33,665 bases of DNA, taken from positions 1 to 33,665 of the IMG/VR virus record IMGVR_UViG_3300025282_000135; one strand, given 5' to 3'. Shown here piece by piece: positions 6,201 to 33,589 of the stretch. Every line of letters begins with the position of its first letter. Within the stretch, counting starts at the first letter, position 1. A program made the position numbers and the translations under genes. This DNA is from a virus. The notes beneath the pieces were generated by a model, which worked only from the letters and a program-made list of their open reading frames with translations, was not told where the DNA came from and did no database searches.

Positions 6201-8878
6201 GCAATACAACAAGGACTAGAAAAAAATATATTTCACCATTTTGGAAAGATAGCAGGGACGCAAGGACGACTACCACTAAGGTTAACTCGTGTGGCATTGC
6301 TACGGCGTCGAGTATTTGGCCGCTGGATGCCGATTCGGATTGGACCATCGGGACAGCGACGGCAGAAACGGGAAACTTGACGTATAACTTTGCGAGTGGA
6401 ACAAGGGGAGAGTTGTTAACTTTTGATGGTTCTCCGGCATATGCCGCCACCCGCCTTCAATATGTGACTAATATTGGTGCGATTAAGGATTGGGATATAT
6501 ACACTACAATGCCTCTAAGGCTCCCCTCTCTTGAGATAGCGGATAACCCATCGAGGAATCCTTACCATAATAACGAGAGGGATTTTGAGAGAAATACCAA
6601 ACTAGCCGGCCAGGGCATGTCGGTGATTCCGGAGTTCTCATTTAGCAAGATCTTGGACAATCCGGAGATTGATCCAGCACAAGGAATTGGTAATTCTGTA
6701 TTAAAAGATTTAATAGTGTTTACCTTAACTGGTTCCTTCAATATTGCGTTTAGTGATTTGGCAAGCACCACAAAGGGCCCGGAATTCCTTGGTTCTTATT
6801 TATTAACGGATCCGGTGCAATTTGCACCAAGTGATTACGGCCCTACTAGTCAAGTAAGCCTAACGTTCAGGGCCCTAAAGAAATTTAAGCCGTATGATGG
6901 ATTTTATCCTGCCGAGAGAGTGCTTCAATTGTCTTCCATGTTATCTTCTTCTATAAAAGATATTGTGACCTTAGCGGGTCCCCAGAGGACAGCTAGAACG
7001 ATGATACAGCCGTTTACTTCTCCGGGTATCTTATTGAATTCTATTAAGTCTGGAATCGCGGTAGACTATCCTTTAGTAACGTCGTCGGTTGTTGCGTATA
7101 ACGCCGCGCTAGCGCCGACTAGCGGCTCGCTTTTTGGTACGCACCTTATAGAGTACTCTGCTACGCTAAACGGCGGTACGGGCCTAAGGAGACTTCCGTT
7201 TGAGGCTCTTAGAGATCCGATCCCATATTTGTTTCCGCTTGGGAGCACTGGATGGCATGATAATTCGGCGGGCCCGGAATACTTAACGAATTCAACTGCT
7301 TCAATTACACAAGCAAAAGTTGAGCATAGAACAATTCTGTATACTAAGGCGATAGATAATTTTGAAACTGAAGTTGAGTATATGAATCTTGAAGGTGGCG
7401 GCGCTGAAATTTTATTCCCTGCGGAAAGAAAATGGAATTCTTTTGAAGTGAACGAAACCTATAAAGGCAGAATTTCTTTAATGTCTAATGATTTTTTGAG
7501 TTGTGGTAACGTTGGGGGATATGGACCAAACTTTCTTTATACAAATATAGGAGGTCTAAGAGAGATATTTAATCCATTTGTGCCTTCATTTGTTGAAGCG
7601 GCTCGCAAATTAGATGAGTCATCTGCATATAGCGTTGAAAATAATCATGTTGAATTAACATTTATACCGTCATCTTCTAAGCCGACTGTGCATGATGTAT
7701 TGGGTACTTCCACAAGAACATTTAAGGATTGGAGAACTTTGGACGCGATAGGAACAGTCACGGCCCTAGCAGATGTTCAAAGAGATCTTATGGCCATCAC
7801 TGCGTCTTTGAATATAGATGAGATTGTAGTTGATCCAGGCACACAGGTTACGGACGATAACAGAATAACAACTGTAGACGATGCACAAACAAGCGATAAA
7901 ATTTGGAGAATTAGGCCGAAGTGGCAGACGCCCGCCATTAATTTTGTCAATGTACTGAGAGACCTGCAAGCGGCGGGAGCATCTGGAGACTTACTTGAGT
8001 TACACAAGAATCAGACAAGCATATGGACAACCGCCGGAGAAGTCCCATCTAAGAATACAAGCAACGGGGTCTTCATGATTCTTGATGAACCAAATGATGG
8101 TTCCAAATCTCTATGGGATGCAATTGGTATTCCAAGAGAAGACAGAAGAAAGAGGATTGGCGAGGTAAGAGAGTCTTTTGAGATCAAAGAGGCGGTTGTT
8201 GCGGTTCCGATGAGAATAGATCCGGTAACGCAGGACATCTTATTTTTTAATTTATGCGAGGATCATCATCTATATGAGCAGACACGGGAAGCATTGGGGG
8301 AGTTCTTATTCCCGCCAAGATTTGACTTTGCAAGAAATCCCCAGTTTTCACCGGTTGTTATGCACGTATTTGAGTTTTCTACGGAGTTGTCAGAGGTTGA
8401 TCTATGTGCCATATGGCAAAATACAAATGTTAACCTTGGAAGGGATGACAACTTTGAGATTAAAGAAAAAACAATTGTAGATTTAACTACTTTTGATGAT
8501 ATGGAATTTACGGATGAGATTAGATGGATGATATTCAAGGTGAAACAAAGGGCAATAGTGAATAAGCGGTCCATAACTGAATTTGGCCAAGAGGTGGGAC
8601 AGGACTTAACATCTAAATATTCCTATAATTGGCCTTATGATTATTTCTCCTTGATTGAATTAGGGGAACTTGAGATAAGCCTAAAATTTGGAGAAGATAC
8701 GCGAACAACCAAGATGAAACCGCTACAAAACATATTAATCGATTCCAAATCTCAAGCGAAGATAGATGAGAAACAAGAACAAAAATCGGAAGTTTGCGGT
8801 ATGAAACAAGAACAAAAGACAAGAAAGAAGAAGGCGGCAGCGCGGGAAGCTGAATCGGTTACGAGAGGTAGAAAGTAA
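299..8878 (+). CDS. Giant virion structural protein with LamG-like domain (2859 aa)
   Basis: This single uninterrupted frame fills a quarter of the window. Start GTG 299 has an AGGAGA site. Residues about 180-430 look like a LamG/concanavalin-type jelly roll: a strand reading ATVEFWLKK, then NNWHHYAIALRND, then IDFYVDGR, and a closing SGSIDEFRYWKTYRN followed by GVYYKFNEG. Such folds often bind glycans. Residues about 620-646 (IYKSKGTEKALRNVLRCFGI) resemble a helix motif found in phage tail/baseplate proteins, and a helical segment lies at about 1134-1245. A Gly/Asn-rich, probably disordered linker lies near 1283-1312. The rest is strand-rich with many Ser/Thr/Gly. The last 40 residues are very basic and Gln/Lys rich. 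The role is inferred: a tail, baseplate or adhesin component. It ends in TAATG, overlapping the next start by one base, which suggests translational coupling. Confidence 0.75.
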   Translation: MSLKDKFEKNVKESHKSGFIKKSTLETFSGDVESKDFVFHSLESRKEFIPDIDYASASNFARFGSAKRYFLDSTDRIINTYPYDGSAAEKTAWANSSSYLDKYVFEKEYPRATGYAIFSPHAAGGWGTLSTPLITDPTDPNWAEGYGSPSDQEYIAVRSGPNVDNVYNTGTFQEENLKFDLSGSWKTGDFGGATVEFWLKKDSYIPTLTGKEVIFDLWNGETDPDAHGRLLIELTSSGGHPHGAPTFLVTAMSGVIGGAGGGVQRAIIGSGSSDDDVFFGNPENTIAAIGTASVADNNWHHYAIALRNDTGSIDTIDIDFYVDGRHHESVATGTKIQRVMSNPNIAPAGGNIAHIGALRAAPPNNSNAAIGWGKLSGSIDEFRYWKTYRNSKDIAKNYFTHVFGGTNTDTSNTKLGVYYKFNEGIVGNPAFDSVVLDYSGRVSNGRWVGLDTGSHRSEGSAINESSASSTPEFKDPILYRNHRDIINYIEEKELSGTLHDSRNNSYLLNNLPGWILDEQDLTSSGSVGELTKLTQVIASYFDKLYHQSEFLSKLKHVDYEKQNSYPAGMLNSILQSYGMNSADFFIDSDVVQALFRRDEDRLFEKSLHDIKNVIYKNIHNNLISIYKSKGTEKALRNVLRCFGIDDEVFRLNVYNKNGVYELKDHERITTERKRFVDFSTAQTGTIFQATSSTSILGGEQTPNMSQAYINFSTADFGNSHTWEAGVFFPDRKDFFDPNFISVSQVSASVFGVTNVGSSPSPLTTHTGQYDQRITLYAVKVDDLGNPDIRSKKAKFVVKEGTGTGDLATTPFTSSIFDLYEGTHWNFALRWSPRNDWGHLVDAASSISNSHLASGSAEKPGINPGGGGSIPDVGGPLVAEPTAISTSDPVTGAPLTIDRSYNIELYGVQMDAGEIVREISGTVFHAPPVTSSVSLVRGYIGATRTGHTGTVLAPSDVMVRNFRCYKTYVDNDEVKRHILDPFNYGLKTPYYSNFVFNDNQTYSEFFPRTDSLVLNWDFEYPEETDEATALTGSTATITSPLGQYNEVLDISSGSLKRVGSPLPGQTNPDNIATEPVYKYHPGRAVGFDSGSSLFRTKYYQMLDLNVPGNLHDYDLINIEETNPNTFTKRTRPTNMFFSIESSMYGLISEEMLHMFSTIQQFNNYIGNPVNKYRIEYKELKKLREIYFRKIERQPDFDKFVNYYKWLDSSITYLVQDLFPVSAEHSSDIRTVIESHVLERNKYQHKYTNMISGTSRERQFAPTGHGLRDNPNLNFNNTTKLPPPVGGGNSSAQGPNNDNRENSNENDRGGTNFADVRNFHVTPDGTSKAGITALRITKDAADPEITSGDVGVDATRQAIRNSARVDLGRRTTVNMAFVTNMKGGTNARRNQNIFAWTGLRFGDTIVATPSATSSAQERIDNEASFPERKQRIEYETVITDNAGVTTLTTQKIAPGAYYETNNTVDVEIVADDGSTVGTELVALHEDGYASQLNNPYESSLNGSPYISDKVGGFFHRHHKVAATDRREGYVFTNGTTFERTFGTTPVTLWRFPKIKRPLSIRNIKTTADSVGNYSASYEIAQIVSGRRENNLAASDGRAVVSSSFAETPFLNNGQSASFGTTGLTERTLDDGNYNRSVFVQRFSSPGDKYTMSEGYLDTYAGEYSVYNSLNFRNLVVRTVLRNNLSAKTEKFTLDTGSIHGIYQNPLKVIKSSSLGVVATSSVFDNFFVIHPIPRSDSQYTWITGSAILLPLGYQTGSLVNSNHSGIDFLNVLLKTGQAPVDFTSLNTRVVETFNVTASVLGGTDSSEAFVNTKFGVLGDQLNARLLNRNGPFGWPIWKQIRSSQNPVTRWQNRNNVHSVNSVIGAENRLVNDGKNLFLSSSVVTVKYRPVQHSVETKKGPATYRYTHAAEKDLTPHQVLDDGIYDKRTMHDVLFELYSDTKVPEGINPVKSFNSLIYKEGVWPREVNALRNTTRTRKKYISPFWKDSRDARTTTTKVNSCGIATASSIWPLDADSDWTIGTATAETGNLTYNFASGTRGELLTFDGSPAYAATRLQYVTNIGAIKDWDIYTTMPLRLPSLEIADNPSRNPYHNNERDFERNTKLAGQGMSVIPEFSFSKILDNPEIDPAQGIGNSVLKDLIVFTLTGSFNIAFSDLASTTKGPEFLGSYLLTDPVQFAPSDYGPTSQVSLTFRALKKFKPYDGFYPAERVLQLSSMLSSSIKDIVTLAGPQRTARTMIQPFTSPGILLNSIKSGIAVDYPLVTSSVVAYNAALAPTSGSLFGTHLIEYSATLNGGTGLRRLPFEALRDPIPYLFPLGSTGWHDNSAGPEYLTNSTASITQAKVEHRTILYTKAIDNFETEVEYMNLEGGGAEILFPAERKWNSFEVNETYKGRISLMSNDFLSCGNVGGYGPNFLYTNIGGLREIFNPFVPSFVEAARKLDESSAYSVENNHVELTFIPSSSKPTVHDVLGTSTRTFKDWRTLDAIGTVTALADVQRDLMAITASLNIDEIVVDPGTQVTDDNRITTVDDAQTSDKIWRIRPKWQTPAINFVNVLRDLQAAGASGDLLELHKNQTSIWTTAGEVPSKNTSNGVFMILDEPNDGSKSLWDAIGIPREDRRKRIGEVRESFEIKEAVVAVPMRIDPVTQDILFFNLCEDHHLYEQTREALGEFLFPPRFDFARNPQFSPVVMHVFEFSTELSEVDLCAIWQNTNVNLGRDDNFEIKEKTIVDLTTFDDMEFTDEIRWMIFKVKQRAIVNKRSITEFGQEVGQDLTSKYSYNWPYDYFSLIELGELEISLKFGEDTRTTKMKPLQNILIDSKSQAKIDEKQEQKSEVCGMKQEQKTRKKKAAAREAESVTRGRK

Positions 8879-18299: not shown

Positions 18300-19529
18300 A
18301 TGGGTTCATTTGTTAAGCCTCTTGGGGCGCAAGATAAAATAACAACTAAAACAAACTTATACGAACTAATCCCGGTTACAGGGACGGTTGTGTCTGCCAC
18401 ATATGAAGAAGGCAGTGGTGTAAAAGACCTGGTTGAGACAAACATCAAGAACTATAGCCACGGACTATTCCAATCCGTGTTCGATTACCCGTATGCAAGT
18501 TCGTCGGCGAACCATATTTTCGATATTACGGCGGGGCATGCGTCCTCATCTTGGACAACGGGGACAACATTTCAATATAATCGCTCTGACAAGATTCGAA
18601 TGTATAATGAAATGGCTGCGCAACTTATGGGATACGATGCCGATGGCAATCTAAGAAGATTTGATCTAGATGGTAATTTGGCCACTGGAACGAAGATTAA
18701 TGAAGCCTTCTTTATGAACTTTGCTAGGCTTACCACAAAGGATGAGATACGTCGGGGTACGTTTAAGCTAGATATTAATATTTCTGGAACCATGACGGCT
18801 TCGGCAGGAAGATTCTTTAGCGCGAGTTTTGGCAATGCGGCCATTGTTAGGGTCTGGGATGACCACGCTTCGCCAACTAAAGTAGATCCGGAATATTTTA
18901 CGAACTCTCCCGCTGGCGAATATGGGGTGCTGAGGATTTCTGGCACTAATGATAACGGAACCGGACTACAACACACGAAGTCGGTTGGCTTGGTGTTCTA
19001 TCAGGCGGGGGTAGCCGTATTGGATACGGAGTTGTTTGGTGGACCTGGCACTGACTCACGGCCCGCTCTTGAAGTGTCTGCATCTGGGCTTGGAGGTTTC
19101 TCAAGAGGATATTTCCATAACGATGTTCCAAGCGCTGCTGCCCTTGGCGCTGCCGGTGAACCTCCTGCGGGTGGACCCGGAACCGTTAGCGGCTCTCTTA
19201 TGATCAGATATCAGAGCGTCACGGGAGCGGCAAACTTCCTCAGGACATGCATTAGTAATGTAGAATTCCAGAATATAACTGAGTTGAATTCAACTATCTA
19301 TAAATGCGCTGCTAATCACACTGAATTTAATTATAGCACGAATCCAACGTATTTAACGGGAAGTAAAATTAGGGTCAAGAATAGTGCGGAGGATAATCCT
19401 GCTAGCTATATAACTACTATTGGTCTATATTCATCAAATGGAGAATTGATGGCTGTGGCGAAGCTTTCCGAGCCAATCAAGAAATCGCCAGAAACGGATC
19501 TAATTCTTAGAACACGCTTGGATTTCTAA
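18300..19529 (+). CDS. Probable virion structural protein, paralogue of the gene at 20668 (409 aa)
   Basis: The start ATG at 18300 is preceded by a weak purine-rich site. The protein is rich in Gly/Ser/Thr and beta strands. It shares an ordered series of short matches with the 445-residue protein at 20668: RGTFKLDINISGT against KGSVRLKYYISGT, VGLVFYQAGVAVL against VGVVLYNEGIIIL, NYSTNPTYL against NHSNNPTYL, and near the C-terminus GELMAVAKLSEPIKKS against RNLIGVAKVGTPVRKT. This indicates common ancestry by duplication. The two copies are now separated by a homing endonuclease gene. The function is inferred as virion structure; no enzyme motif is seen. Confidence 0.65.
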   Translation: MGSFVKPLGAQDKITTKTNLYELIPVTGTVVSATYEEGSGVKDLVETNIKNYSHGLFQSVFDYPYASSSANHIFDITAGHASSSWTTGTTFQYNRSDKIRMYNEMAAQLMGYDADGNLRRFDLDGNLATGTKINEAFFMNFARLTTKDEIRRGTFKLDINISGTMTASAGRFFSASFGNAAIVRVWDDHASPTKVDPEYFTNSPAGEYGVLRISGTNDNGTGLQHTKSVGLVFYQAGVAVLDTELFGGPGTDSRPALEVSASGLGGFSRGYFHNDVPSAAALGAAGEPPAGGPGTVSGSLMIRYQSVTGAANFLRTCISNVEFQNITELNSTIYKCAANHTEFNYSTNPTYLTGSKIRVKNSAEDNPASYITTIGLYSSNGELMAVAKLSEPIKKSPETDLILRTRLDF

Positions 19530-19566
19530 AAATAAATTCATTAGTCGGGTCTTTTAGAATCGGTTT

Positions 19567-19576
19567 ACTATTTATA
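19567..19576 (+). promoter_or_regulatory. Third ACTATTTATA element, abutting the homing endonuclease start
   Basis: This exact copy of the element found twice at 17351-17378 ends 3 bases before the ATG at 19580. The 50-base gap holding it (19530-19579) shows no convincing Shine-Dalgarno or terminator hairpin. If it were a T4-like late promoter, it would fire on the opposite strand (TATAAATAGT); read on the + strand it lies too close to the ATG to make a normal leader. Confidence 0.35.
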
Positions 19577-19579
19577 TAC

Positions 19580-20650
19580 ATGGGAAACTATGAAAATAGG
19601 TGCGTTGTCTGCGAAGAAGCGTTCTCCGCAAGAATTCCACATAAAAAAACTTGCTCAAAAGAATGCCGCAAGAAGCATCAGATAACTCTTCGTAAAAAAA
19701 GATCTGGTTCCGATAAGTTTGTTGAAATTAAGTGCTATGCTTGCGATACTTTATTTATGCCCAAGAGAAAGGCACATACTTATTGTTCTAAAAAATGCAA
19801 AAAACATGCCGAGTATCTTCGCTTAAAGCCGCTGATGGCAAAAGGATGCATCCAGTGTGGTAAAGGGTTCGAAACTCGCAAGGAGGCAACAAAGTATTGC
19901 TCTCAGGCGTGTGTAAACCACACTATGGCTAATCCACCAGTAACCAAGAACTGCGAATGGTGTAATGAAGAGTTCACGGTACCCTTTATTATTCGACGCA
20001 GAAGGTTCTGCTCTAAGAGTTGTTCAACTAGTCATATGAATGAAAATAGGGATGAGGCGGTATCAAAGAGGGTTGGGAGAAGACTAAAAGAAGCTTATGC
20101 ATCCGGGAGATTAATTCACCCGTTCAAGGGAAGAAAACACACACAAAAAACAAAAGACAAGATTAGTCGATATCATATTGAAAATGGAACATCAAAAGGC
20201 AAAAACAATCCCATGTATGGCAAAAAACACACAGCTAAAACAAAAGAAAAAATAAGCAAGACTAGGGCGGAGAGGATAATAAACGGAGACTACGCTAGCT
20301 GGTTCCACAAGGGAACTCATTTCTCCAAGAAGCTCAACAAGGGAGTTGTCTTTCGGTCTTCTTGGGAAGAGCGCGCCTTTAAATCTTTAGATGTTAATGA
20401 TAATGTTATAGATTATGCGCCTGAGCCATTTTCATTGGAATACCACTATGTACAAAAAAGAAATTATATCCCAGATATCCTTGTGACCTACAAAGACGGA
20501 ACGCAGAAGCTTATCGAGATTAAACCGGAGTATTTCGTGGGCGATAAAAAGAACCAAGCCAAGTTCAAAGCAGCCAAGAAATTTTGCAAAGAGCGCAACA
20601 TTATTTTTGAGGTCTGGACCGAAAAAACTATTAGGGGCTTAACTACTTAG
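19580..20650 (+). CDS. Putative free-standing homing endonuclease: four zinc fingers, NUMOD3-like repeats, PD-(D/E)XK nuclease (356 aa)
   Basis: The N-terminal half holds four regular Cys4 fingers of form CxxC-x13/15-CSxxC: Cys 8/11/25/29, 52/55/69/73, 90/93/107/111 and 125/128/144/148. Residues 180-235 carry two NUMOD3-type repeats (PFKGRKHTQKTKDKIS and PMYGKKHTAKTKEKIS), DNA-binding elements typical of phage homing endonucleases. The C-terminal domain (about 255-345) has PD-(D/E)XK features: Glu263 in SWEERAF, Asp299 in YIPDI, and Glu313-Lys315 in LIEIKP. By family knowledge such proteins cut a target allele lacking the gene and spread by repair. The gene is flanked by paralogous structural genes, an expected setting for a mobile nuclease. 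No good ribosome site precedes the ATG, but no better in-frame start exists before residue 60. Confidence 0.8.
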   Translation: MGNYENRCVVCEEAFSARIPHKKTCSKECRKKHQITLRKKRSGSDKFVEIKCYACDTLFMPKRKAHTYCSKKCKKHAEYLRLKPLMAKGCIQCGKGFETRKEATKYCSQACVNHTMANPPVTKNCEWCNEEFTVPFIIRRRRFCSKSCSTSHMNENRDEAVSKRVGRRLKEAYASGRLIHPFKGRKHTQKTKDKISRYHIENGTSKGKNNPMYGKKHTAKTKEKISKTRAERIINGDYASWFHKGTHFSKKLNKGVVFRSSWEERAFKSLDVNDNVIDYAPEPFSLEYHYVQKRNYIPDILVTYKDGTQKLIEIKPEYFVGDKKNQAKFKAAKKFCKERNIIFEVWTEKTIRGLTT

Positions 20651-20667: not shown

Positions 20668-22005
20668 ATGTTTTATAAGTTCAAGCGAAACGACGTATTA
20701 AAGAATATAGTGAGGACTCACCCCAAGTATGAGATATTCTCTTGGTCTGGCTCCTTGTATATAAACCAGAAGCAGACTGCGGCAACAACTCCAATTGGAC
20801 CCCCTCTTGTTTCGGGTAGCTCCTTAAACCTATATGAGTACAACGTTGTATCTCAGTCTACAATTATAGTTGCTTTGGGCGAAGGCTCGGAGTTTGAGAA
20901 TGTTGTTGTTAGTAAGGATACCGATGGAACAAACACAGTTCTTCCTCAGAGAGGAGAATATCCGTTTACGGCCTCGGTGAAGCGCTTTTTATATGTGCCC
21001 TCTAGGTTTTCTGATTATTCGTCATCCTTGATTGTCGGAGATCCTAATTTTAGAAAGTTGAATCCGATGGAGTTTTCAGGGGCACTGATGCGCAGAGCGC
21101 TAGGAAACACGATGGATTTTTATAGGCCATATGGTCCACAATATATGGCCAACCATAATGACCTTGACCAGTTGGCGACGCAGTTTGATCCAGATGATAC
21201 TGCATTTCCGGTGACAAACAATTTAATTGATGTACCGAAGATCTTTTATGGCGATAGCCTTAGAAAGGGCAGTGTAAGGCTCAAATATTATATCTCTGGA
21301 ACCAAGATAGCTGAAGCGCATGATCTCTATCATAATGGGGATCTTATTCAAATAAGTGGAAATCAGGCGGCTACGGTACCGCTTAGTTCGACAGTTGGAG
21401 TGGTCTTATATAATGAAGGAATCATTATATTGAGCGGCTCGTCGGACCCAAAAAGGACAGGCTATAAGCTATCTGAGAATGATGACAATAAAGACTTTTA
21501 TAAGAGAGTCGCTGGTGACGCTGGCGGTGGGGTTGGAGGAAGCGGCAGTCATATTACGGACTGGCCTCAATGGCAATACTTCTTTAACGGAGTGGGGCCG
21601 GATCGAACATTCTTACAGTCAGCAGGACCTATGCAGGCTGAGATCTCCAGCTACCAACTTGAATTTGAGGGCGTGCATGAAGTACCTGCGTTGACGATGT
21701 TCGCGCACGCACCGAAGACACATCTAAATCATTCAAATAACCCCACCTATTTGGCGTTTAGCCAGAGCCTATACCCAACGAGCACGAACATATACGCTTT
21801 CCAGCAGAACGAAGTCGCACGAATACAAAACACTGTTTCTAGCTCTTTTCATAACGTATCTGGAACATTCCAAAAACAGACATTTATTTCAAATGTAGCA
21901 ATTTTTGATAAAGATAGAAATCTAATAGGGGTTGCGAAAGTGGGGACACCTGTTCGCAAGACTGAAGAACAAGATTATACCTTTAAGCTCACGCTAGACA
22001 CATGA
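20668..22005 (+). CDS. Probable virion structural protein, paralogue of the gene at 18300 (445 aa)
   Basis: The ATG at 20668 follows the endonuclease stop by 17 bases, with a GGAG/TAGGA-type site. The N-terminus begins MFYKFKRNDVLKNIVRTHPK, a basic and aromatic segment absent from its paralogue. The middle and C-terminal parts match the 409-residue protein at 18300 through the ISGT, VVLYNEG, NPTY and VAKVGTPVRK segments. It is Gly/Ser/Thr rich with many beta strands and no membrane segment. A virion role (tail or decoration) is inferred from composition and context. The last codons overlap the resolvase start as ATGA, so the replication island that follows is probably translated from the same message. 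Confidence 0.65.
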   Translation: MFYKFKRNDVLKNIVRTHPKYEIFSWSGSLYINQKQTAATTPIGPPLVSGSSLNLYEYNVVSQSTIIVALGEGSEFENVVVSKDTDGTNTVLPQRGEYPFTASVKRFLYVPSRFSDYSSSLIVGDPNFRKLNPMEFSGALMRRALGNTMDFYRPYGPQYMANHNDLDQLATQFDPDDTAFPVTNNLIDVPKIFYGDSLRKGSVRLKYYISGTKIAEAHDLYHNGDLIQISGNQAATVPLSSTVGVVLYNEGIIILSGSSDPKRTGYKLSENDDNKDFYKRVAGDAGGGVGGSGSHITDWPQWQYFFNGVGPDRTFLQSAGPMQAEISSYQLEFEGVHEVPALTMFAHAPKTHLNHSNNPTYLAFSQSLYPTSTNIYAFQQNEVARIQNTVSSSFHNVSGTFQKQTFISNVAIFDKDRNLIGVAKVGTPVRKTEEQDYTFKLTLDT

Positions 22006-22532
22006 TTCTAGGATTGGACGTAAGCACCAGCGCCACTGGCTTTGCGATAATAAGTCGCGATGGCGAACTTGTATATTCCAATTATGTTGACACGAGAAAC
22101 AGGCGCAAATATCCGGACATATTTGATGTATGTGAGCAAATCAAAGGAATGCTAACAAAAATCAAAGAAGAATTCGAAGTCGAAAGGATATGCATTGAAG
22201 AGTCTCTCCAGTCGTTTAGAAGCGGGTATTCATCTGCGAATACAATTGCGGTTCTTTCTAAGATTAACGGGATGACGTCACTTATGTGCTTCGAGATTTT
22301 TTCAATCAAGCCGGAGTACGTTAATTCTGCGACAGCCAGAAAGCTCTGTGGTATAAAGGTTCCCAAGGGAAAGGACACCAAGAAACATGTTTTGGAGCAT
22401 GTCTTGGGAGCCGAACCCAGTTTTGTTATAGAGTACACAAGAACGGGGACGTATAAGCCGTACTGCTATGATAAGGCTGATGCCTATGTCGTAGCAAAAA
22501 GCGCTTGGAAAGAATGCAAGGAAGCACGGTAA
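22002..22532 (+). CDS. RuvC-like Holliday junction resolvase (176 aa)
   Basis: The protein begins with the RNase H-fold strand ILGLDVSTSATGFAI, where Asp6 is the first expected metal ligand. The second acidic motif is ICIEESLQSF (Glu66), and the C-terminal motif is CYDKADAYVVAKSAW, offering Asp160 (or Asp157) as the last ligand. This order and the 176-residue length fit small phage and bacterial RuvC-type resolvases, which cut four-way DNA junctions as a dimer. In a T4-like phage this would resolve recombination intermediates before packaging, a job done in T4 by the unrelated endonuclease VII. The start overlaps the upstream stop (ATGA) and the 3' end overlaps the primase gene, so expression is probably coupled. 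Confidence 0.8.
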   Translation: MILGLDVSTSATGFAIISRDGELVYSNYVDTRNRRKYPDIFDVCEQIKGMLTKIKEEFEVERICIEESLQSFRSGYSSANTIAVLSKINGMTSLMCFEIFSIKPEYVNSATARKLCGIKVPKGKDTKKHVLEHVLGAEPSFVIEYTRTGTYKPYCYDKADAYVVAKSAWKECKEAR

Positions 22533-23449
22533 AACTACAGGTTCTATCGCGGATCTTAGGAAGGTATAGGAAGCAGAACCAGGAGTTTCTGTTCTCGTGC
22601 CCTACCTGCGAGCACCGCAAAAAGAAACTATCTGTAAATGTGGAGAAGAATAAGTTTCAGTGCTGGACATGTGGATTCTCTGGAAGCACATTGAGTGCAA
22701 TTGTTAAGAAATATGGAGAACCCAAGGATAAAAAGGAATGGCTAGAAGCCGGTGAAGTTGTTGATATCAACGATTTTTATAAGATCTTTGAAGAGGAAAC
22801 CGAGAAAAGAGAAGAAGTCGTCCTTCCGGAAGAATACATATGCCTAGTAAATGAAGATGTTCCCAGATCTGCCCTGATGGCTAAAAAATATCTTAAGGAA
22901 AGAGGGGTAACCCGGGACGATATCTTGCTAAATAAGATTGGATATTGTGCAACTGGCGAATATGCAAGAAGAGTTATCGTACCCTCTTTTGATATTGAAG
23001 GAGAAATTGATTATTTTATAGCAAGAAGCTATACGGGAGACTTTTTAAAGTACAAAAATCCAAAAGTTAGTAGGAATATTGTCTTTAATGATTTGTACAT
23101 TAACTGGAATGATGATATAGTGCTGGTCGAAGGTGTGTTTGATGCCATTAGGGCCGGATATAATACCATACCTTTATTGGGTTCTACTTTGAATGTAAAT
23201 TCTGTGCTGTTCTCTAAGATTGTTAATAATGATACCGGGGTTTATTTGGCTCTTGACCCGGATGCCCACATAAAAGAGAATAAAATCGCTATAGAACTCA
23301 TGAAATATGGGATTGATGTATATAAAATTGAAATCGGAGACTATGAGGACGTAGCGGAGATGCCTAAAGACGTCTTTGAGCGGAGAAAAACGGGCGCCCA
23401 GCGCCTAGACAGAGAGGGGTGCATGCTGAACTACGTTTTTTATGCGTAA
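22514..23449 (+). CDS. Small DNA primase: zinc ribbon plus Toprim (311 aa)
   Basis: A DnaG/T4 gp61-type primase is indicated by a Cys4 zinc ribbon (CPTC at residues 29-32, CWTC at 50-53 followed by GFSGS) and a Toprim-like core: Glu in LVEGVFDAIRAGY and acidic residues in LALDPDAH. It makes RNA primers for lagging-strand synthesis. The length is close to that of T4 gp61 (342 residues), and there is no fused helicase domain. I chose ATG 22514; an in-frame TTG at 22505 would add three residues. Both starts lie inside the 3' end of the resolvase gene. The next gene's GTG follows the TAA by 11 bases, with the ribosome site partly over the stop, so these genes look co-expressed. Confidence 0.8.
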   Translation: MQGSTVKLQVLSRILGRYRKQNQEFLFSCPTCEHRKKKLSVNVEKNKFQCWTCGFSGSTLSAIVKKYGEPKDKKEWLEAGEVVDINDFYKIFEEETEKREEVVLPEEYICLVNEDVPRSALMAKKYLKERGVTRDDILLNKIGYCATGEYARRVIVPSFDIEGEIDYFIARSYTGDFLKYKNPKVSRNIVFNDLYINWNDDIVLVEGVFDAIRAGYNTIPLLGSTLNVNSVLFSKIVNNDTGVYLALDPDAHIKENKIAIELMKYGIDVYKIEIGDYEDVAEMPKDVFERRKTGAQRLDREGCMLNYVFYA

Positions 23450-23454
23450 AGGGG
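23448..23454 (+). promoter_or_regulatory. Shine-Dalgarno deciding the GTG start of the Mre11-Rad50 fusion
   Basis: AAAGGGG overlaps the primase stop and sits 6 bases before the GTG at 23461. It favours that GTG over the upstream in-frame GTG at 23419, which would add 14 residues lying inside the primase gene. The sequence from 23461 also begins exactly at the first conserved strand (RIAHIADIH). Confidence 0.7.
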
Positions 23455-23460
23455 CTAGAA

Positions 23461-26400
23461 GTGAGAATTGCGCACATAGCAGACATTCATATTAGGAATT
23501 ATAAGTATCATAAGGAGTATAAGGCTGCTTTTGAAGACTTATATGTCAAGTTACGCGAACAAAGGGTGGATTTAATCTGCCTTCTTGGTGATATAGCGCA
23601 CACAAAGACAGATATATCGCCGGAATTTGTCAAAATGACATCAGATCTCTTTATCGAGCTAGGAAAGATCGCTCCAATGAAGATTATTCTTGGAAACCAT
23701 GATCTTAATTGCAAGGCTAAGGCTCGTCTGGACGCTATTACGCCCATAGTAGACGCATTGAATGATAAAAACATTGAATTGTGGAAGTATTCGGGAATTA
23801 GAAAGTGTGGTTCTTACTTAAACAATGATAAAACTGTACTTCCTGTTAACTTTAATGTTTTTTCTATTTTAGATCCTGAAAACTGGACAAGACCGGAAAG
23901 CGGAGCCATTAATATTGCTTTATACCACGGCTCGATAAGCGGATGCACAGTTGACAACGGGTGGGTCATGGAAAATGGGGATAATAATGTTGAGTGTTTT
24001 GAGGGGCACGATCTAGTACTGTTGGGAGACATCCACAAGAGGCAGAATATGGACAAAGAGGGTAGAATCGCCTATCCGGGGTCCTTAATCCAGCAAAACT
24101 TTGCGGAGGACCGCGAAAAGGGGTTCTTAGTCTGGAATATTAATAGTAAAGACAATATAGTATCTGAATTTGTCCCTGTAAAAAATATAAGGCCGTTTAT
24201 CAACGTTTCTGTAGAAAATAAGGCCCTAAAATGCGCAAAAGAGGATATAAGAGGGGCCCGAGTCAGGCTTGTGGTAAATGAACTCTTAACCACAAAAGAA
24301 ACGCAGGATTTATTGTCAGAGATTAGAGAACAGTTACCGGAGAGCGTCGTTATCCAAAATAATGTGGGTAAATTAACTGGTATACTTGATGCTGAAGGTA
24401 GAAAGATAGAAAAAGACGACTTGGCGGGGACAGGCGTACAAAATAAATTTCTTGAAGAATTTTTAAGCGCTCATGACGTAGGCGATGAAAAAGTTCAGGC
24501 GGTTCTAGAACTTAATAAGAAGTACAATCACTTAGTGGCCTCTTCCTCTCCTACAACGGAACAAATTCAGTGGGATATAGACAAAATAGAGTGGAATAAT
24601 TTCTTTAATTATGGTGAAAATAACGAAATAAATTTTGAGGACTTAAACGGTATAATAGGAATATTCGGAAAGAGTTATTCTGGCAAGTCTAGTGTTATTG
24701 ACACTCTGTTGTTTACTATTTTCAACAATTCAACTAAGAATGTTAGGAAAAACATAAACTATATAAACTCTGATAAAGATAGGGCTGACGCCAAAGTCCA
24801 TCTTAAAATCGACGGACAATCTTTTGCTGTTGAAAGAAAGCTTGAAAAGTATAAAAAATCTGGAAAACCTGAAGCCAAATCAGATGTACACTTCGCAAAC
24901 GTAACTAGCGGTGAGGTGTTAAATCAATTAGATAAGAAAGAAACAGATAGACAGATACAGAAAGTGTTTGGAAGGTTTGAGGATTTCTTGCTGACGTCAG
25001 TATCGTCCCAACTGGGCTCCCTGTCGTTTATTAACGAGGGGACGACTAAGCGGAGAGAAGTCCTATCAAGATTTCTTGGATTGGACGTTTTTTCAAAGAT
25101 AAATGATCTGGTAAAAGTAGAAACCAGGGATTTGAAGGGTGCCCTTAAAAAGGCGTCCTTGGAGGAGGTTGAGAATAAAATAAACAAAAGCAAGGAAGAA
25201 CTAAAGGATACTAAAAAAGACTGTAAAAAAATAAAAATCAGCATTGATAAACAAAAAGGTTTGATACACGAAATTAAAGAAGCTATTGCGGAAGCAAGCG
25301 AGGCAATATCCAATATCAGTATTCTTGGCATAGATATAGTTGAGTTGAAGGACAGGCACGAGTTCCTGCTCCTACATTCTGATAACGTAAGGCAGGAAAT
25401 AGAAGACAAACAATCTAAGATTGATGAATATAATCTCAAGTTAGAAAAGATAGAAAAATTTATAGAGGTATACGACTACCAGGGTTTTCTTGAGAAGAGA
25501 GAAACGTATGAGAAAATTGAAAAAGAGATTGCGGGGCTCTTGGAAGAAGAGAGAAGAATAAGACGCGATATTGAGGTAGACCAAGAAAAAATAAAGATTC
25601 TTGATAGCGTCCCTTGTAAAGAATGCGAGGAGTTTGCAGGGTGCAGATTTATAGTCGGTGCGGTGGATTCGAAAAAAGGCGTAAGCAAGAAACTAAAGGC
25701 CGAAGAGCAGGCACGAGCAAAACTTGCTGCTTTCGAGAGCGTTAGAGGTGGCGAAGATTTTAAAAAAGAAACAGAGAGGGCCGAAAAGTATAAAAAGTGC
25801 GAACTCCTAGAAAAGGAATTATTAGTAAAGATCCTTAGATTAAACGCCGAGATACAAGAGTGTAAAACGAGCGTTAATAAAACAAATGACGAGCTTGATG
25901 AGATCGATGACAAGAAGGCAAGATATTATAAGGATATAGAGAATGAAACGAGGGCGAGAGAGCTTAGGGAACTCTTGGAAAAAAAGGGCTGCCACCTTGT
26001 TTCGATGGAAAGGCGACTTGAGGAGTCCAATAAGGACTATGAAGGCGCTAGCAGGAGAGAAGCGGCAATCTATGGGATCCTTGGGGTCCTACTGGAAGAA
26101 GAGAAACAAATCAAAAAACTACAAGCGGATTATGAGGTATATGATTTATATCTAAAGGCCACGAGTTCAAATGGCATACCTTTTGCGATCTTAAAAAACA
26201 ACCTGTCCCTGATAAACGAGCAGATTAATAATGTTTTGGCGAACGTGGTTGACTTTAAAGCATATTTTGCGACCGACGATAACAGGCTGGAGATCCTGCT
26301 AGAGCACCCAGGGAGCGAGCTTAGGCCGATAGAGCTTGGCTCCGGAGCGGAGAAGACCTTGGTGTCGATTGCGGTTCGTATTGCCATGACGAGCTTTTCT

Positions 26401-26610
26401 AACCTGCCACGCGCAAACTTCTTTATTTTGGATGAACCAGGAACAGCCCTGGACGCAGAGAATCTTAGGGCCTTTGACAGGATTTTAGACCTACTTAGGC
26501 AGCAGTTTAGATTTACACTCTTGATCACGCACATTTCAGAGATGAAAGACTCTGTTGATAAAATCATTGAAGTGAACAAAAATAATAAATACGCATATAT
26601 AAAGGCTTAG
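23461..26610 (+). CDS. Single-chain Mre11-Rad50 (SbcD-SbcC, gp47-gp46-like) nuclease-ATPase fusion (1049 aa)
   Basis: Residues 1-225 form a calcineurin-type phosphodiesterase with the Mre11 motifs in order: D8-x-H10, G43-D44, G78-N79-H80, H156 and G189-D190-I191-H192. Residues about 230-375 resemble the Mre11 capping domain and a Rad50-binding helical segment. After a short Ser/Thr/Pro linker the Rad50 part begins (DKIEWNNFFNYGE), with Walker A GKSYSGKS at 403-410, a long Lys/Glu-rich coiled coil, a CxxC zinc hook at 719-722, the ABC signature LGSGAEKT at 959-966, and Walker B with Asp991-Glu992 (FFILDEP). In T4 and bacteria these are two proteins; here they are one frame with no stop. The complex processes DNA ends for recombination-dependent replication. 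Start GTG 23461 is chosen on its ribosome site. Confidence 0.88.
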   Translation: MRIAHIADIHIRNYKYHKEYKAAFEDLYVKLREQRVDLICLLGDIAHTKTDISPEFVKMTSDLFIELGKIAPMKIILGNHDLNCKAKARLDAITPIVDALNDKNIELWKYSGIRKCGSYLNNDKTVLPVNFNVFSILDPENWTRPESGAINIALYHGSISGCTVDNGWVMENGDNNVECFEGHDLVLLGDIHKRQNMDKEGRIAYPGSLIQQNFAEDREKGFLVWNINSKDNIVSEFVPVKNIRPFINVSVENKALKCAKEDIRGARVRLVVNELLTTKETQDLLSEIREQLPESVVIQNNVGKLTGILDAEGRKIEKDDLAGTGVQNKFLEEFLSAHDVGDEKVQAVLELNKKYNHLVASSSPTTEQIQWDIDKIEWNNFFNYGENNEINFEDLNGIIGIFGKSYSGKSSVIDTLLFTIFNNSTKNVRKNINYINSDKDRADAKVHLKIDGQSFAVERKLEKYKKSGKPEAKSDVHFANVTSGEVLNQLDKKETDRQIQKVFGRFEDFLLTSVSSQLGSLSFINEGTTKRREVLSRFLGLDVFSKINDLVKVETRDLKGALKKASLEEVENKINKSKEELKDTKKDCKKIKISIDKQKGLIHEIKEAIAEASEAISNISILGIDIVELKDRHEFLLLHSDNVRQEIEDKQSKIDEYNLKLEKIEKFIEVYDYQGFLEKRETYEKIEKEIAGLLEEERRIRRDIEVDQEKIKILDSVPCKECEEFAGCRFIVGAVDSKKGVSKKLKAEEQARAKLAAFESVRGGEDFKKETERAEKYKKCELLEKELLVKILRLNAEIQECKTSVNKTNDELDEIDDKKARYYKDIENETRARELRELLEKKGCHLVSMERRLEESNKDYEGASRREAAIYGILGVLLEEEKQIKKLQADYEVYDLYLKATSSNGIPFAILKNNLSLINEQINNVLANVVDFKAYFATDDNRLEILLEHPGSELRPIELGSGAEKTLVSIAVRIAMTSFSNLPRANFFILDEPGTALDAENLRAFDRILDLLRQQFRFTLLITHISEMKDSVDKIIEVNKNNKYAYIKA

Positions 26611-26645: not shown

Positions 26646-26840
26646 ATGTCTGAAGGAATGAAAGCTGTACTTGATAGATATGTTGAAAGATTTGTTAGTA
26701 GGAAATTTCTTACGTGGCTAACGGCGACATGGCTAGTTTTGAATACGTCGTTGACCAGCGAGGACTGGGTAGCGGTTTCCTTGGTCTACATCAGTAGTCA
26801 AGCAGCGGTTGATTTGGCGAAAGCATGGAGGCATGGATGA
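26646..26840 (+). CDS. Small two-helix membrane protein, holin-like (64 aa)
   Basis: The ATG at 26646 has a GGGAGA site. The 64-residue product has a charged N-terminus, then two hydrophobic segments, about residues 20-36 (KFLTWLTATWLVLNTSL) and 41-58 (WVAVSLVYISSQAAVDLA), joined by a short TSED turn, and a basic C-terminus. This hairpin layout fits class II holins, which permit endolysin release or membrane depolarisation at the end of infection. The evidence is topology only, with no sequence family recognised, and no endolysin gene is seen in the window. The next gene starts within its last codons. Confidence 0.5.
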   Translation: MSEGMKAVLDRYVERFVSRKFLTWLTATWLVLNTSLTSEDWVAVSLVYISSQAAVDLAKAWRHG

Positions 26841-30511: not shown

Positions 30512-33500
30512 ATGAAAGACTATAAGCAAGGCACCTCGGGAGCCACTAGAAATCCCAAGAATGAAATATCACCTCTGTTCCGGGGCCTGACAAGGCTGTT
30601 CAGCGGGCCGTATGTAAATTATAGAAGGCAGCAGGTACGCAAGGGTAGAAAGAGCCAGCTTCAAACAAGCAAGTTCCTATCGCTAGGTGGACTTGAGTTT
30701 AAAAAGGAATATGGACTTGAGCCATTTAAGAATCTCATGGCTGGCCAATTGCAGGCCTCGTCGCGTGCGGAGCGCTACTTGGACTTTGATCAGATGGAGT
30801 TCATGGCCGAGATTGCTTCGAGCATGGATATTTATGCGGACGAAATTACGACGGCCACGGATTTTCAAGAAATCTTAAAAATTAAATGTCCTAACGAAGA
30901 AATTAAAAGTATTCTACATACGCTGTTTTATGAGGTGTTAAATGTAGAATTCAATTTATTCGGTTGGACTAGAACGATGTGCAAATATGGGGATCTTTAT
31001 CTCTATTTGGACATTGATGAAAAACTAGGTATTACGAATGTAATTGGGTTGCCCTCTGTTGAGATTGAACGCCTAGAAGGCGAAGACAAGACCAATGCGA
31101 ATTATGTACAGTACCAGTGGAACGCTGGGGCGGTTACGTTTGAGAATTGGCAGGTTGCACACTTTAGAATTCTCGGAAATGATAAATTCGCTCCCTATGG
31201 AACGTCTATTCTGGAACCCGCTCGACGTATCTGGCGTCAGCTCTGTTATTCATATGATACAAAAGTTTGGGTGAAATCAGGGGGTTATAAGGAAATTCAA
31301 TATGTCGAGCCCGGGGAAACTGTGCTTGCATACGATTATAAAAATTCTCAATTGGTTGAAACAAAAGTTAAGAATGTTGCCTCCATGGGAAGACAAGAGG
31401 TAGTTGAGATCCAGACTGCGCATAGGACCATTAAGGTTACTCCGAATCATGGTATGTATGTTAAAACAAAGTCGGGAGAGATTATCTGCAAACAAGCTAA
31501 GGACTTGATTGTCTCCAACGGAAAAGGTGGCTGGGACTGTAGAAAGGCAGATAAGCTTATTTTGCCTTCTGGATGGCAAGAACAAAAAGATGGCCATTGT
31601 ATCAAAATCTCTCAAGATATTTATGAGGGACAATGGCCGGTTCGAAATGTCTCTTGGCGAGGCGAAGATTTTTATACGACTCCCGAGTTCTTAAGGGTTC
31701 TAGGGTTTATGATTGGAGATGGATGGATTAATAAGAATAAGCTTGGATTTGCTCTTGGCATTGAAGAAGAACAAAACGAATGTTACGTTAATCTGATGAA
31801 AGAGACAATGAGATTAGGTGATCTGGAGCGCGTAGACGCAGAGCATAAAAGAGGTGGACAAGTTAATTTTAATTCTAAAGAAGTTGTATCCATTTTTAAA
31901 GAGGCTGGATTCATTTCTGGGTTTGATAAAAAAAGAGTGCCCTCGTGGGTTTATAGTATGAACCAGGAGAATAAAGTCGAGTTCCTTAGGGGACTGATGG
32001 ACGCGGATGGATGCTGGACTGATGGACGACTAGCGCTATCTAACAAAGAACTAATGGAGGATGTTAGAATCCTAGCACAACAAGCCGGTGTCGCGGTGGG
32101 ACGTGAAATTAAGTTGGATAGAAAAGCTGGGATCTACGAAGATAAATGTTTTGGAGAAATAACAAGAAAAGATAGCTATAGACTGTATTTGAACCTTGAT
32201 TCCATAGTTGAAGAAGATGTCACTTATGAGACTGTATGTAGAGTAATCGATATTGGAGAAGAGGAGACTTATGATCTAGAAGTAGAGCATGAGTCTCACA
32301 ACTTTGTATCGGAAGGTATTGTGGCAAGCAACACGCTTATTGAGGACGCCATGATGGCGTACCGTGTGGTTCGTTCACCGGAGCGCAGAGTGTTCTATAT
32401 CGATGTTGGAAACATTGATCCAAATGATGTCGAAGCATACATCGAGAAAATGAAGACAAACCTCCGTAGACACCAGATTGTGGATCAGTCTACTGGCCGT
32501 GTTGACCTAAGATATAACCCTTTAAGTATTGAAGAGGACTACTTTGTTCCACTGAGGGGAGATAAATCATCTCGGATTGAAACGCTACCAGGCGGAACGT
32601 ATACTGGCGACATTGACGATGTTAATTATCTGAGGGACAAATTGTTTTCCGCTCTCAAGGTTCCAAAGAGTTACCTTGCACAAGGTGATCAAATGGAAGA
32701 CAAGACGACTCTCGCGCAAAAGGATATGCATTTTGCAAGAACGGTCCAGAGGCTCCAGCGAGCGGTTATATCAGAACTGTATAAGGTAGCGGTTGTTCAT
32801 CTTTACACGCTTGGATATAGAGACAAGGATCTGGCAACTTTTACTCTGCATTTAAACAATCCTTCCAAGATTGCGGAGTTGCAAGAGCTAGAATATTTAA
32901 ATACAAAGTTTGGTTTGATTAACAATACGCCGGAAGGGTACTTCTCTAAGCGGTGGATCTCTAAGAACATCCTTAATCATAGCGATGATGAAATCATCAA
33001 GAACAAGATTGAGATGTTCCATGACGCCAAGTTCATGGCGAAGCTTGAATCTGTTGCTGCCGAGGAAGCAGCGATGCAACAGCAGGCCATGATGGGTGGT
33101 ATGGGTGGAATGCCTGGAATGGAGGGTATGATGCCCGGACCCGAACAGATGGCGGCAATGGGTGCGCCTCCTGATGGCGGAATGCCTCCTGAAGAAGAGA
33201 CAATGCTCCTTGCGGAACCTGGAGCAGAAGAAGGCCCCGCCCCCCCTGGAGCAGAAGCCGGCCTTGGGATGCCTCCTCCGCCGGCAAAGAGAGATGGACC
33301 TAAAAAGAACGATGGTAGATCTCATGGAGGGCCCTTCAAGAGAAACATGGACAAACTTGTTGGCAAGATGGATCCTAGGCAGACAGGGATAGTCCCTCCG
33401 GACATGATGTCTTTTTCTAGGGGAATGGTTTTTGGAGATTCTGTGCAGCCCGACCCGGATGAGACGCTCCTTTTAGAGGCGTCTTCAAAGGTTGAAGAAC

Positions 33501-33589
33501 TATTTAAAGATGTAGAACTATCCAAAATTGATAAAGAAAAGATCGATGAACAAATTTCTTATCATAAAAAGAGAAGCAGTAAAAAGTAG
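30512..33589 (+). CDS. Portal vertex protein (T4 gp20-like) precursor interrupted by an intein (1025 aa; about 662 after splicing)
   Basis: The frame starts at ATG 30512 with AAGGGG 6 bases before it. Residues 1-244 and 608-1025 together form a gp20-type portal. The N-extein ends SILEPARRIWRQL and the C-extein begins TLIEDAMMAYRVVRSPERR then VFYIDVGNI, the highly conserved portal signature, which becomes continuous only after residues 245-607 are removed. The spliced portal would be about 662 residues, longer than T4 gp20 (524). The excess lies mainly in the C-terminal tail, with a Met/Gly/Pro-rich low-complexity stretch near residues 850-930. The portal forms the dodecameric DNA channel and docks the terminase encoded just upstream. 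Without splicing the inserted domain would disrupt it, so intein activity should matter for infectivity. Confidence 0.9.
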   Translation: MKDYKQGTSGATRNPKNEISPLFRGLTRLFSGPYVNYRRQQVRKGRKSQLQTSKFLSLGGLEFKKEYGLEPFKNLMAGQLQASSRAERYLDFDQMEFMAEIASSMDIYADEITTATDFQEILKIKCPNEEIKSILHTLFYEVLNVEFNLFGWTRTMCKYGDLYLYLDIDEKLGITNVIGLPSVEIERLEGEDKTNANYVQYQWNAGAVTFENWQVAHFRILGNDKFAPYGTSILEPARRIWRQLCYSYDTKVWVKSGGYKEIQYVEPGETVLAYDYKNSQLVETKVKNVASMGRQEVVEIQTAHRTIKVTPNHGMYVKTKSGEIICKQAKDLIVSNGKGGWDCRKADKLILPSGWQEQKDGHCIKISQDIYEGQWPVRNVSWRGEDFYTTPEFLRVLGFMIGDGWINKNKLGFALGIEEEQNECYVNLMKETMRLGDLERVDAEHKRGGQVNFNSKEVVSIFKEAGFISGFDKKRVPSWVYSMNQENKVEFLRGLMDADGCWTDGRLALSNKELMEDVRILAQQAGVAVGREIKLDRKAGIYEDKCFGEITRKDSYRLYLNLDSIVEEDVTYETVCRVIDIGEEETYDLEVEHESHNFVSEGIVASNTLIEDAMMAYRVVRSPERRVFYIDVGNIDPNDVEAYIEKMKTNLRRHQIVDQSTGRVDLRYNPLSIEEDYFVPLRGDKSSRIETLPGGTYTGDIDDVNYLRDKLFSALKVPKSYLAQGDQMEDKTTLAQKDMHFARTVQRLQRAVISELYKVAVVHLYTLGYRDKDLATFTLHLNNPSKIAELQELEYLNTKFGLINNTPEGYFSKRWISKNILNHSDDEIIKNKIEMFHDAKFMAKLESVAAEEAAMQQQAMMGGMGGMPGMEGMMPGPEQMAAMGAPPDGGMPPEEETMLLAEPGAEEGPAPPGAEAGLGMPPPPAKRDGPKKNDGRSHGGPFKRNMDKLVGKMDPRQTGIVPPDMMSFSRGMVFGDSVQPDPDETLLLEASSKVEELFKDVELSKIDKEKIDEQISYHKKRSSKK
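31244..32332 (+). mobile_element. Intein with LAGLIDADG homing endonuclease inside the portal gene (363 aa)
   Basis: The insert begins with Cys245 (CYSYDTKVWV, block A) and ends EGIVASN at Asn607, before Thr608. Splicing block B is VTPNHGMYV (Thr310, His313). The endonuclease has two dodecapeptide motifs, LGFMIGDGWI (Asp403) and LRGLMDADGCW (Asp499), so it belongs to the two-motif LAGLIDADG type. The C-terminal blocks are YDLEVEHESHNFV and EGIVASN. The penultimate residue is Ser rather than the usual His. By family knowledge it excises itself from the precursor protein and cuts intein-free portal alleles to spread. Its boundaries are set by the conserved portal sequence on each side and by the nucleophile rules Cys1, Asn-last and Thr+1. 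Confidence 0.9.

Follow-up and report, generated by a model that had tools for sequence, protein, structure and literature searches.

Does one gene of the virus recorded as IMGVR_UViG_3300025282_000135 in IMG/VR encode both Mre11 and Rad50, and if so, how does it relate to the usual two-subunit enzyme? The original prediction, made from the 33,665 nucleotides analysed here (the window, a 33.7-kb fragment), held that the two homologues are fused although they are normally separate. They are indeed separate as a rule in T4, bacteria, archaea and eukaryotes; the exception, however, belongs to an already described class (PMC3175470). In the window, a single uninterrupted frame extends from a GTG at 23419 to the stop codon at 26608-26610 (1063 aa in the ORF reading). 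The GTG at 23461, which sits shortly past the primase stop codon (23447-23449) and follows AGGGG by six bases, is the likely start of the fused gene. Residues are numbered below such that residue n starts at 23464+3(n-1).

23450..23454, + strand: Shine-Dalgarno-like AGGGG, read directly, 6 nt upstream of the GTG at 23461
23461..26610, + strand: fused Mre11-Rad50 gene with GTG start, about 1049 aa, a single ORF in 97 of 107 loci

The encoded protein consists of an Mre11-type phosphodiesterase domain, a capping domain, a Rad50-binding helix-loop-helix (HLH), a junction of about 7 residues and a complete Rad50 half, in that order. Pfam detects Metallophos (4.8e-11, residues 1-192), SMC_N (5.2e-14, residues 372-1041) and AAA_23, and a profile search of the PDB assigns the first part to SbcD/Mre11 and the second to SbcC/Rad50. 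The open frame, Pfam, the PDB profiles and an independent contig thus agree that homologues of Mre11 and Rad50 are present in one polypeptide.

23464..24192, + strand: Mre11 phosphodiesterase domain, residues 1 to about 243 (Pfam Metallophos; 89-sequence alignment; SbcD/Mre11 fold)
24196..24363, + strand: capping domain, residues about 245-300 (secondary structure and pLDDT of the model; the SbcD nuclease-plus-capping match spans 1-300)
24568..25083, + strand: N-terminal ATPase lobe of Rad50, residues 369-540, including the Q-loop with Q516 (Pfam, alignment, structure match)
24667-24693: Walker A, G402-x5-K408-S409-S410 (alignment)
26176..26607, + strand: C-terminal ATPase lobe of Rad50, residues 905-1048, with H-loop H1023 (alignment; SbcC structure match)
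26332-26358: signature, S960-G961-A-E963 (alignment)
26422-26454: Walker B, FILDE with D990/E991, and D-loop D997 (alignment)

The superfamily motifs, namely phosphodiesterase motifs I-IV and Walker A, Q-loop, signature, Walker B and H-loop, are all found in the protein, and the five ATPase motifs are conserved in an alignment of 89 sequences. Together with the coiled coil described below, they bear out the prediction of a complete Rad50 half. An AlphaFold2 model of the fused protein as a single chain, built on 58 relatives, has a mean pLDDT of 82.1 and a pTM of 0.52. Its pLDDT drops below 50 only at residues 302-316, a loop that follows the capping domain. Both the capping domain and the Rad50-binding helices that had been proposed are present in the model. 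The Rad50 half superposes on Escherichia coli SbcC (7yzo_D; Z 31.6, 352 residues, 3.5 A, over 370-1048) and the Mre11 half on Staphylococcus aureus SbcD (7dog_B; Z 25.4, 274 residues, 3.4 A) and on 4tug_E (Z 24.3). Among predicted viral structures, the best full-length match is a Tupanvirus repair protein (23% identity, E 2e-68), and the next ones are likewise full-length proteins of giant viruses; Tenacibaculum phages are also represented among the structural matches.

In T4, cyanophages, SPO1-like phages and most jumbo phages, gp47 and gp46 are as a rule encoded by two neighbouring genes, which invites the suspicion that two genes were joined here by a sequencing error or by read-through. 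We give such an artefact practically no chance, as independent contigs rule it out. Contig L005 shares 99.9% identity with the window over 12 kb and keeps the same fused frame, with 2 base differences over 3144 (at 23678 and 25161) that leave the junction untouched. It lacks a 1-kb insert of the window (about 19556-20604) and hence represents a separate genome and a separate assembly. An alignment-based scan of viral contigs revealed at least 589 relatives of the fused protein in IMG/VR. The search for other full-length fusions that had been proposed found them in one frame in 97 of the 107 loci fetched, corresponding to 89 distinct sequences. The fusion is likewise one frame in a 735-kb metagenomic phage and one annotated CDS, WWT39521.1, in an isolate, Microcystis phage Mel-JY01. 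The stretch N351-W370 measures 20 residues in 84 of the 89 sequences. Since relatives at about 27-39% identity keep the architecture, the catalytic residues and the junction length, we regard the fusion as genuine and under selection. Each of 12 larger records (104-190 kb, Mel-JY01 included) carries one fused copy, and no second Mre11/Rad50 match was found in these 12 records; one of them encodes an additional 258-aa metallophosphatase. The window also holds a single copy. Matches in a plasmid collection were partial and distant only.

The 10 exceptions among the 107 loci are mostly contig ends. The rest comprise an N run in a single MAG, two loci in which no ORF could be aligned and one gene into which an endonuclease ORF has inserted. 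A seemingly truncated fusion on a WOR-3 chromosome (L099) was set aside, its frame entering an N stretch, that is, a scaffold gap, from which we draw no inference. The interrupted gene belongs to a 484-kb phage (LR756508.1; L003:4944-9166), in which a relative (27% identity) of an endonuclease of the window is placed just past GDIHKRQ and the Mre11 domain is split into two frames with extra tails. A group I intron or other RNA element was rejected, as no Rfam family reached the gathering score in the window, L002 or the interrupted LR756508 gene. The latter looks like a gene in pieces, comparable to the nrdA gene of phage Aeh1, which is split by mobE. In the window, the endonuclease gene (ORF 19580-20650, zinc-finger/NUMOD3/TnsA-like) lies in the insert that L005 lacks, and a short different sequence joins the flanks there. 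By this comparison, the endonuclease gene of the window is a mobile element inserted recently, and L005 provides a naturally empty site.

Does the fused protein retain what a nuclease needs? The motif residues of its Mre11 half are D7xH9, G42D43, G77N78H79D80, H155 and G188D189I190H191. All five phosphodiesterase motifs had been announced; motifs I-IV are indeed present, but motif V is GDxH and not GHxH.

24025..24036, + strand: motif V, GDIH, with Asp replacing the first His of the canonical GHxH (D189 in 89/89)

D7 (88 of 89 distinct sequences), H9 (86), D43, N78, H79, H155 and H191 are nearly invariant. All 89 have Asp at position 189, while GHxH is found in the T4, E. coli, cyanophage, jumbo phage and SPO1-like phage proteins. 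Mimivirus R555 also has Asp in place of the equivalent of Pfu His206 (PMC3175470). This substitution of a metal-ligand His could alter catalysis, and its constancy in the family, together with its presence in R555, would fit a regulatory or tethering derivative whose nuclease activity was lost through the changed ligand. We consider such a loss improbable: the other metal ligands would not be expected to stay almost invariant had catalysis gone, Asp is able to bind metal, and two further proteins, the T5-like D12 of Vibrio phage PG07 and the phiXF1 fusion, carry GDLH. The idea that GDxH is unique to fusions was rejected on account of the PG07 protein. Loss of essential catalytic residues, which the original prediction had named as an argument against itself, is thus not what the 89 sequences reveal, D189 excepted.

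The Rad50 half departs from the textbook at its apex.

25084..26163, + strand: antiparallel coiled coil, arms about 541-714 and 728-900 (model)
25609..25662, + strand: apical hook VPCKECEEFAGCRFIVGA, residues 716-733, with cysteines C718, C721 and C727 (hook alignment)

The arms of the coiled coil are about 170 residues each in the model. The hook apex of the window reads VPCKECEEFAGCRFI and includes CKEC (C718/C721), so that a CxxC can be read there as had been claimed, but the cysteines that align with those of relatives are C718 and C727, the usual hook among relatives being PCG-x(3-4)-C-[KR]FI. One group of relatives carries DPxCxxC and a few are without an evident cysteine pair. A zinc hook is plausible in the fused family, in a non-textbook form in most members, and zinc-mediated end-tethering may differ given this variation.

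How the two halves are joined bears on how the enzyme could work.

24430..24546, + strand: Rad50-binding helix-loop-helix, helices 323-336 and 341-361 (model; position as in Mre11, PMC3175470, PMC7260605)
24547..24567, + strand: junction, residues 362-368, from the second HLH helix to the first Rad50 strand (alignment, model)

A linker of 9-12 residues was expected for R555-type fusions from the distance in Thermotoga maritima (PMC3175470); the junction of the window, about 7 residues between the HLH (323-361) and the first Rad50 strand (369) of the model, is slightly below this prediction. In relatives, acidic residues precede an RN[IV]xW motif at the junction (R in 86 and N in 85 of 89 sequences). 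The window and its near-copy L005 are among the few sequences departing from this pattern, and residues 360-365 of the window protein read SSSPTT. This Ser/Thr/Pro stretch had been taken as a sign of a functional fusion; the fusion is genuine and the junction length is kept, but the composition is peculiar to the window. What is conserved at the junction, as judged from the alignment, is its length and not its composition.

We consider it highly probable that the protein is a phage Mre11-Rad50 recombination nuclease of the gp47-gp46 type made as a single, R555-type chain, and propose that it operates as follows. Its most likely function would be that of a homodimeric gp46/gp47-like end-resection nuclease for recombination-dependent replication. 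The Rad50-binding helices of each chain would dock in cis, at the base of the coiled coil of that same chain. Two chains would then pair into a homodimer that corresponds to the usual M2R2 unit, and ATP binding would close the Rad50 heads over the nuclease sites. DNA ends and ATP hydrolysis would free the nuclease, which would resect 5' strands or open hairpins or blocked ends. The resulting 3' tails would feed strand invasion by RecA/UvsX and hence recombination-dependent replication, with the neighbouring primase and RuvC-type resolvase.

In the open form of solved Mre11-Rad50 complexes, the base of the Rad50 coiled coil is bound by the HLH. The usual RBD-coil interface is found again in the DNA-bound cutting state of the E. 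coli enzyme, in which the nuclease dimer moves to the side (PMC7260605). As the chain runs straight from the HLH into Rad50 and the interface is kept when cutting, the same cycle would be possible in the fusion, and the position of the join, after the Rad50-binding helices, suggests that it is probably unchanged. The 1:1 stoichiometry that had been foreseen follows directly from the single chain. The further proposal, that fusion could alter assembly and opening, found no support for these same reasons, and a changed opening mechanism is possible but unsupported. We hold it unlikely that R555-type proteins constitute a distinct enzyme branch, characterized by the Asp-for-His site, a non-CxxC hook and a fixed-length RN[IV]xW junction that relays between ATPase head and nuclease; were this so, the homodimer would be gated differently from SbcCD.

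The genes around the fusion were also considered.

22002..22532, + strand: RuvC-like Holliday-junction resolvase, conserved neighbour (relatives in 70 loci)
22505..23449, + strand: DnaG-type primase, conserved upstream neighbour (Pfam/PHROG)

Primase relatives are found in 89 loci. Of these, 88 could be placed, and in every one the primase lies upstream of the fused gene on the same strand, within 300 bp in 40. A T4-type terminase and a T4-type portal are encoded downstream, and 10 of the 12 large relatives (104-190 kb) carry a RecA-type recombinase. This neighbourhood is the setting of T4 gp46/gp47, in which ends are resected for recombination-dependent replication. It also bears on whether the protein could be an SMC-like defence or anti-plasmid protein instead of a replication and recombination enzyme, as the presence of SMC-related Jet/Wadjet and Lamassu proteins among the structural matches might suggest. 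These proteins come after Rad50 in the ranking, and what they match is the generic ATPase and coil, whereas the Mre11 half matches SbcD/Mre11. The location of the gene in a conserved block that includes primase, RuvC and packaging genes, and its single copy in each of the 12 large relatives, further argue against a defence role, which we deem very improbable.

Other genes of the window were noted in passing. A 64-aa ORF with a hydrophobic stretch and no known family (26646-26840) lies just after the fused gene and has relatives in 80 loci. Upstream of the RuvC and primase genes, two proteins of unknown family (18300-19529 and 20668-22005) are conserved in 58 loci each. The portal gene (30512-33589) contains an intein with LAGLIDADG at residues about 243-607 (Pfam Intein_splicing, 2.8e-15); its relative in L006 is a 651-aa frame, against 1025 aa in the window. 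A 2859-aa protein (299-8878) has a weak laminin-G-like match, below cutoff, and no relative in the fetched loci, the flanks of which mostly stop short of it.

Is the fusion new? Yoshida, Claverie and Ogata reported in 2011 Mre11/Rad50 fusions in Mimivirus (R555), Bacillus phage 0305phi8-36, plasmids, bacteria and eukaryotes (PMC3175470). R555-type fusions keep the capping and HLH regions and have a suitable linker, and many were proposed to be phage-borne; R555 homologues abound in aquatic metagenomes, with enrichment in the viral fractions, and often have phage genes such as primases as neighbours, the metagenomic evidence consisting at that time of short fragments only (PMC3175470). This was the only paper on natural Mre11/Rad50 fusions found in the literature searched, in which activity data for R555-type fusions were not found either. 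A report on divergent marine SMC proteins (PMC12153180) was discarded, as it concerns a different family and does not mention fusion.

A tree was built on conserved columns of Mre11 and of the Rad50 head from 20 members of the main family, 10 separate pairs and 2 other fusions, R555 being left out. The main fused family forms one side of a branch (100/99), outside the branch of the separate T4-like pairs. XacN1 branches together with the separate pair of an Erwinia jumbo phage (100/98). Phages have therefore fused Mre11 and Rad50 more than once, and we rejected a single origin for all phage fusions. Long branches make the placement of the phiXF1, Burkholderia, Moorella and PG07 proteins unreliable.

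Single-chain Mre11-Rad50 is thus a normal and abundant solution in marine tailed phages, also present in giant viruses, and not an oddity. Long contigs confirm the proposal of 2011 that many R555-like genes belong to phages. Fusion makes the pair one transferable gene. A compact natural single-chain homodimer would be easier to express, trap and image than a two-subunit complex, and stoichiometry and cis docking would be directly testable in it. The constant GDxH and the variable hook indicate which textbook features of Mre11-Rad50 are dispensable.

Among known systems, E. coli SbcCD resembles the window protein in the folds of both halves and in the ATPase motifs. It differs by its two subunits, GHIH and a CPLC hook, and SbcC alone (1048 aa) equals the whole fusion in length. 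T4 gp47/gp46 and their cyanophage homologues share the nuclease and ATPase domains and a likely role in recombination-dependent replication, but have separate genes, GHxH, a CPTC hook, a shorter coil (gp46, 560 aa) and a separate tree branch. XacN1 BBA65453 (1099 aa) and phiXF1_71 (951 aa) also combine Mre11 and Rad50 halves in one CDS; XacN1 differs by GHFH and its independent fusion, and phiXF1 stands elsewhere on a long branch. The XacN1 gene (L108:3875-7174) is annotated "recombination endonuclease subunit" and that of phiXF1 (L119:3983-6838) "hypothetical protein". The nearest match in an isolated phage is the Mel-JY01 protein, a full-length fusion encoded downstream of a DNA primase-like gene, which is nonetheless only about 28% identical, has the hook CKHCCNN and is annotated only as "AAA domain containing protein". 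The closest likeness is with the R555 type as published: an Mre11-then-Rad50 chain, capping and HLH regions, a short junction, Asp for Pfu His206, aquatic viral abundance and an adjoining phage primase; as judged from its 12 large relatives, the fusion may also be the only form in the virus. Unlike R555 (1351 aa), the window protein has about 1049 aa and resides in a tailed phage with T4-type portal and terminase. We assign it as a further member of the R555-type Mre11/Rad50 fusions, a class known since 2011.
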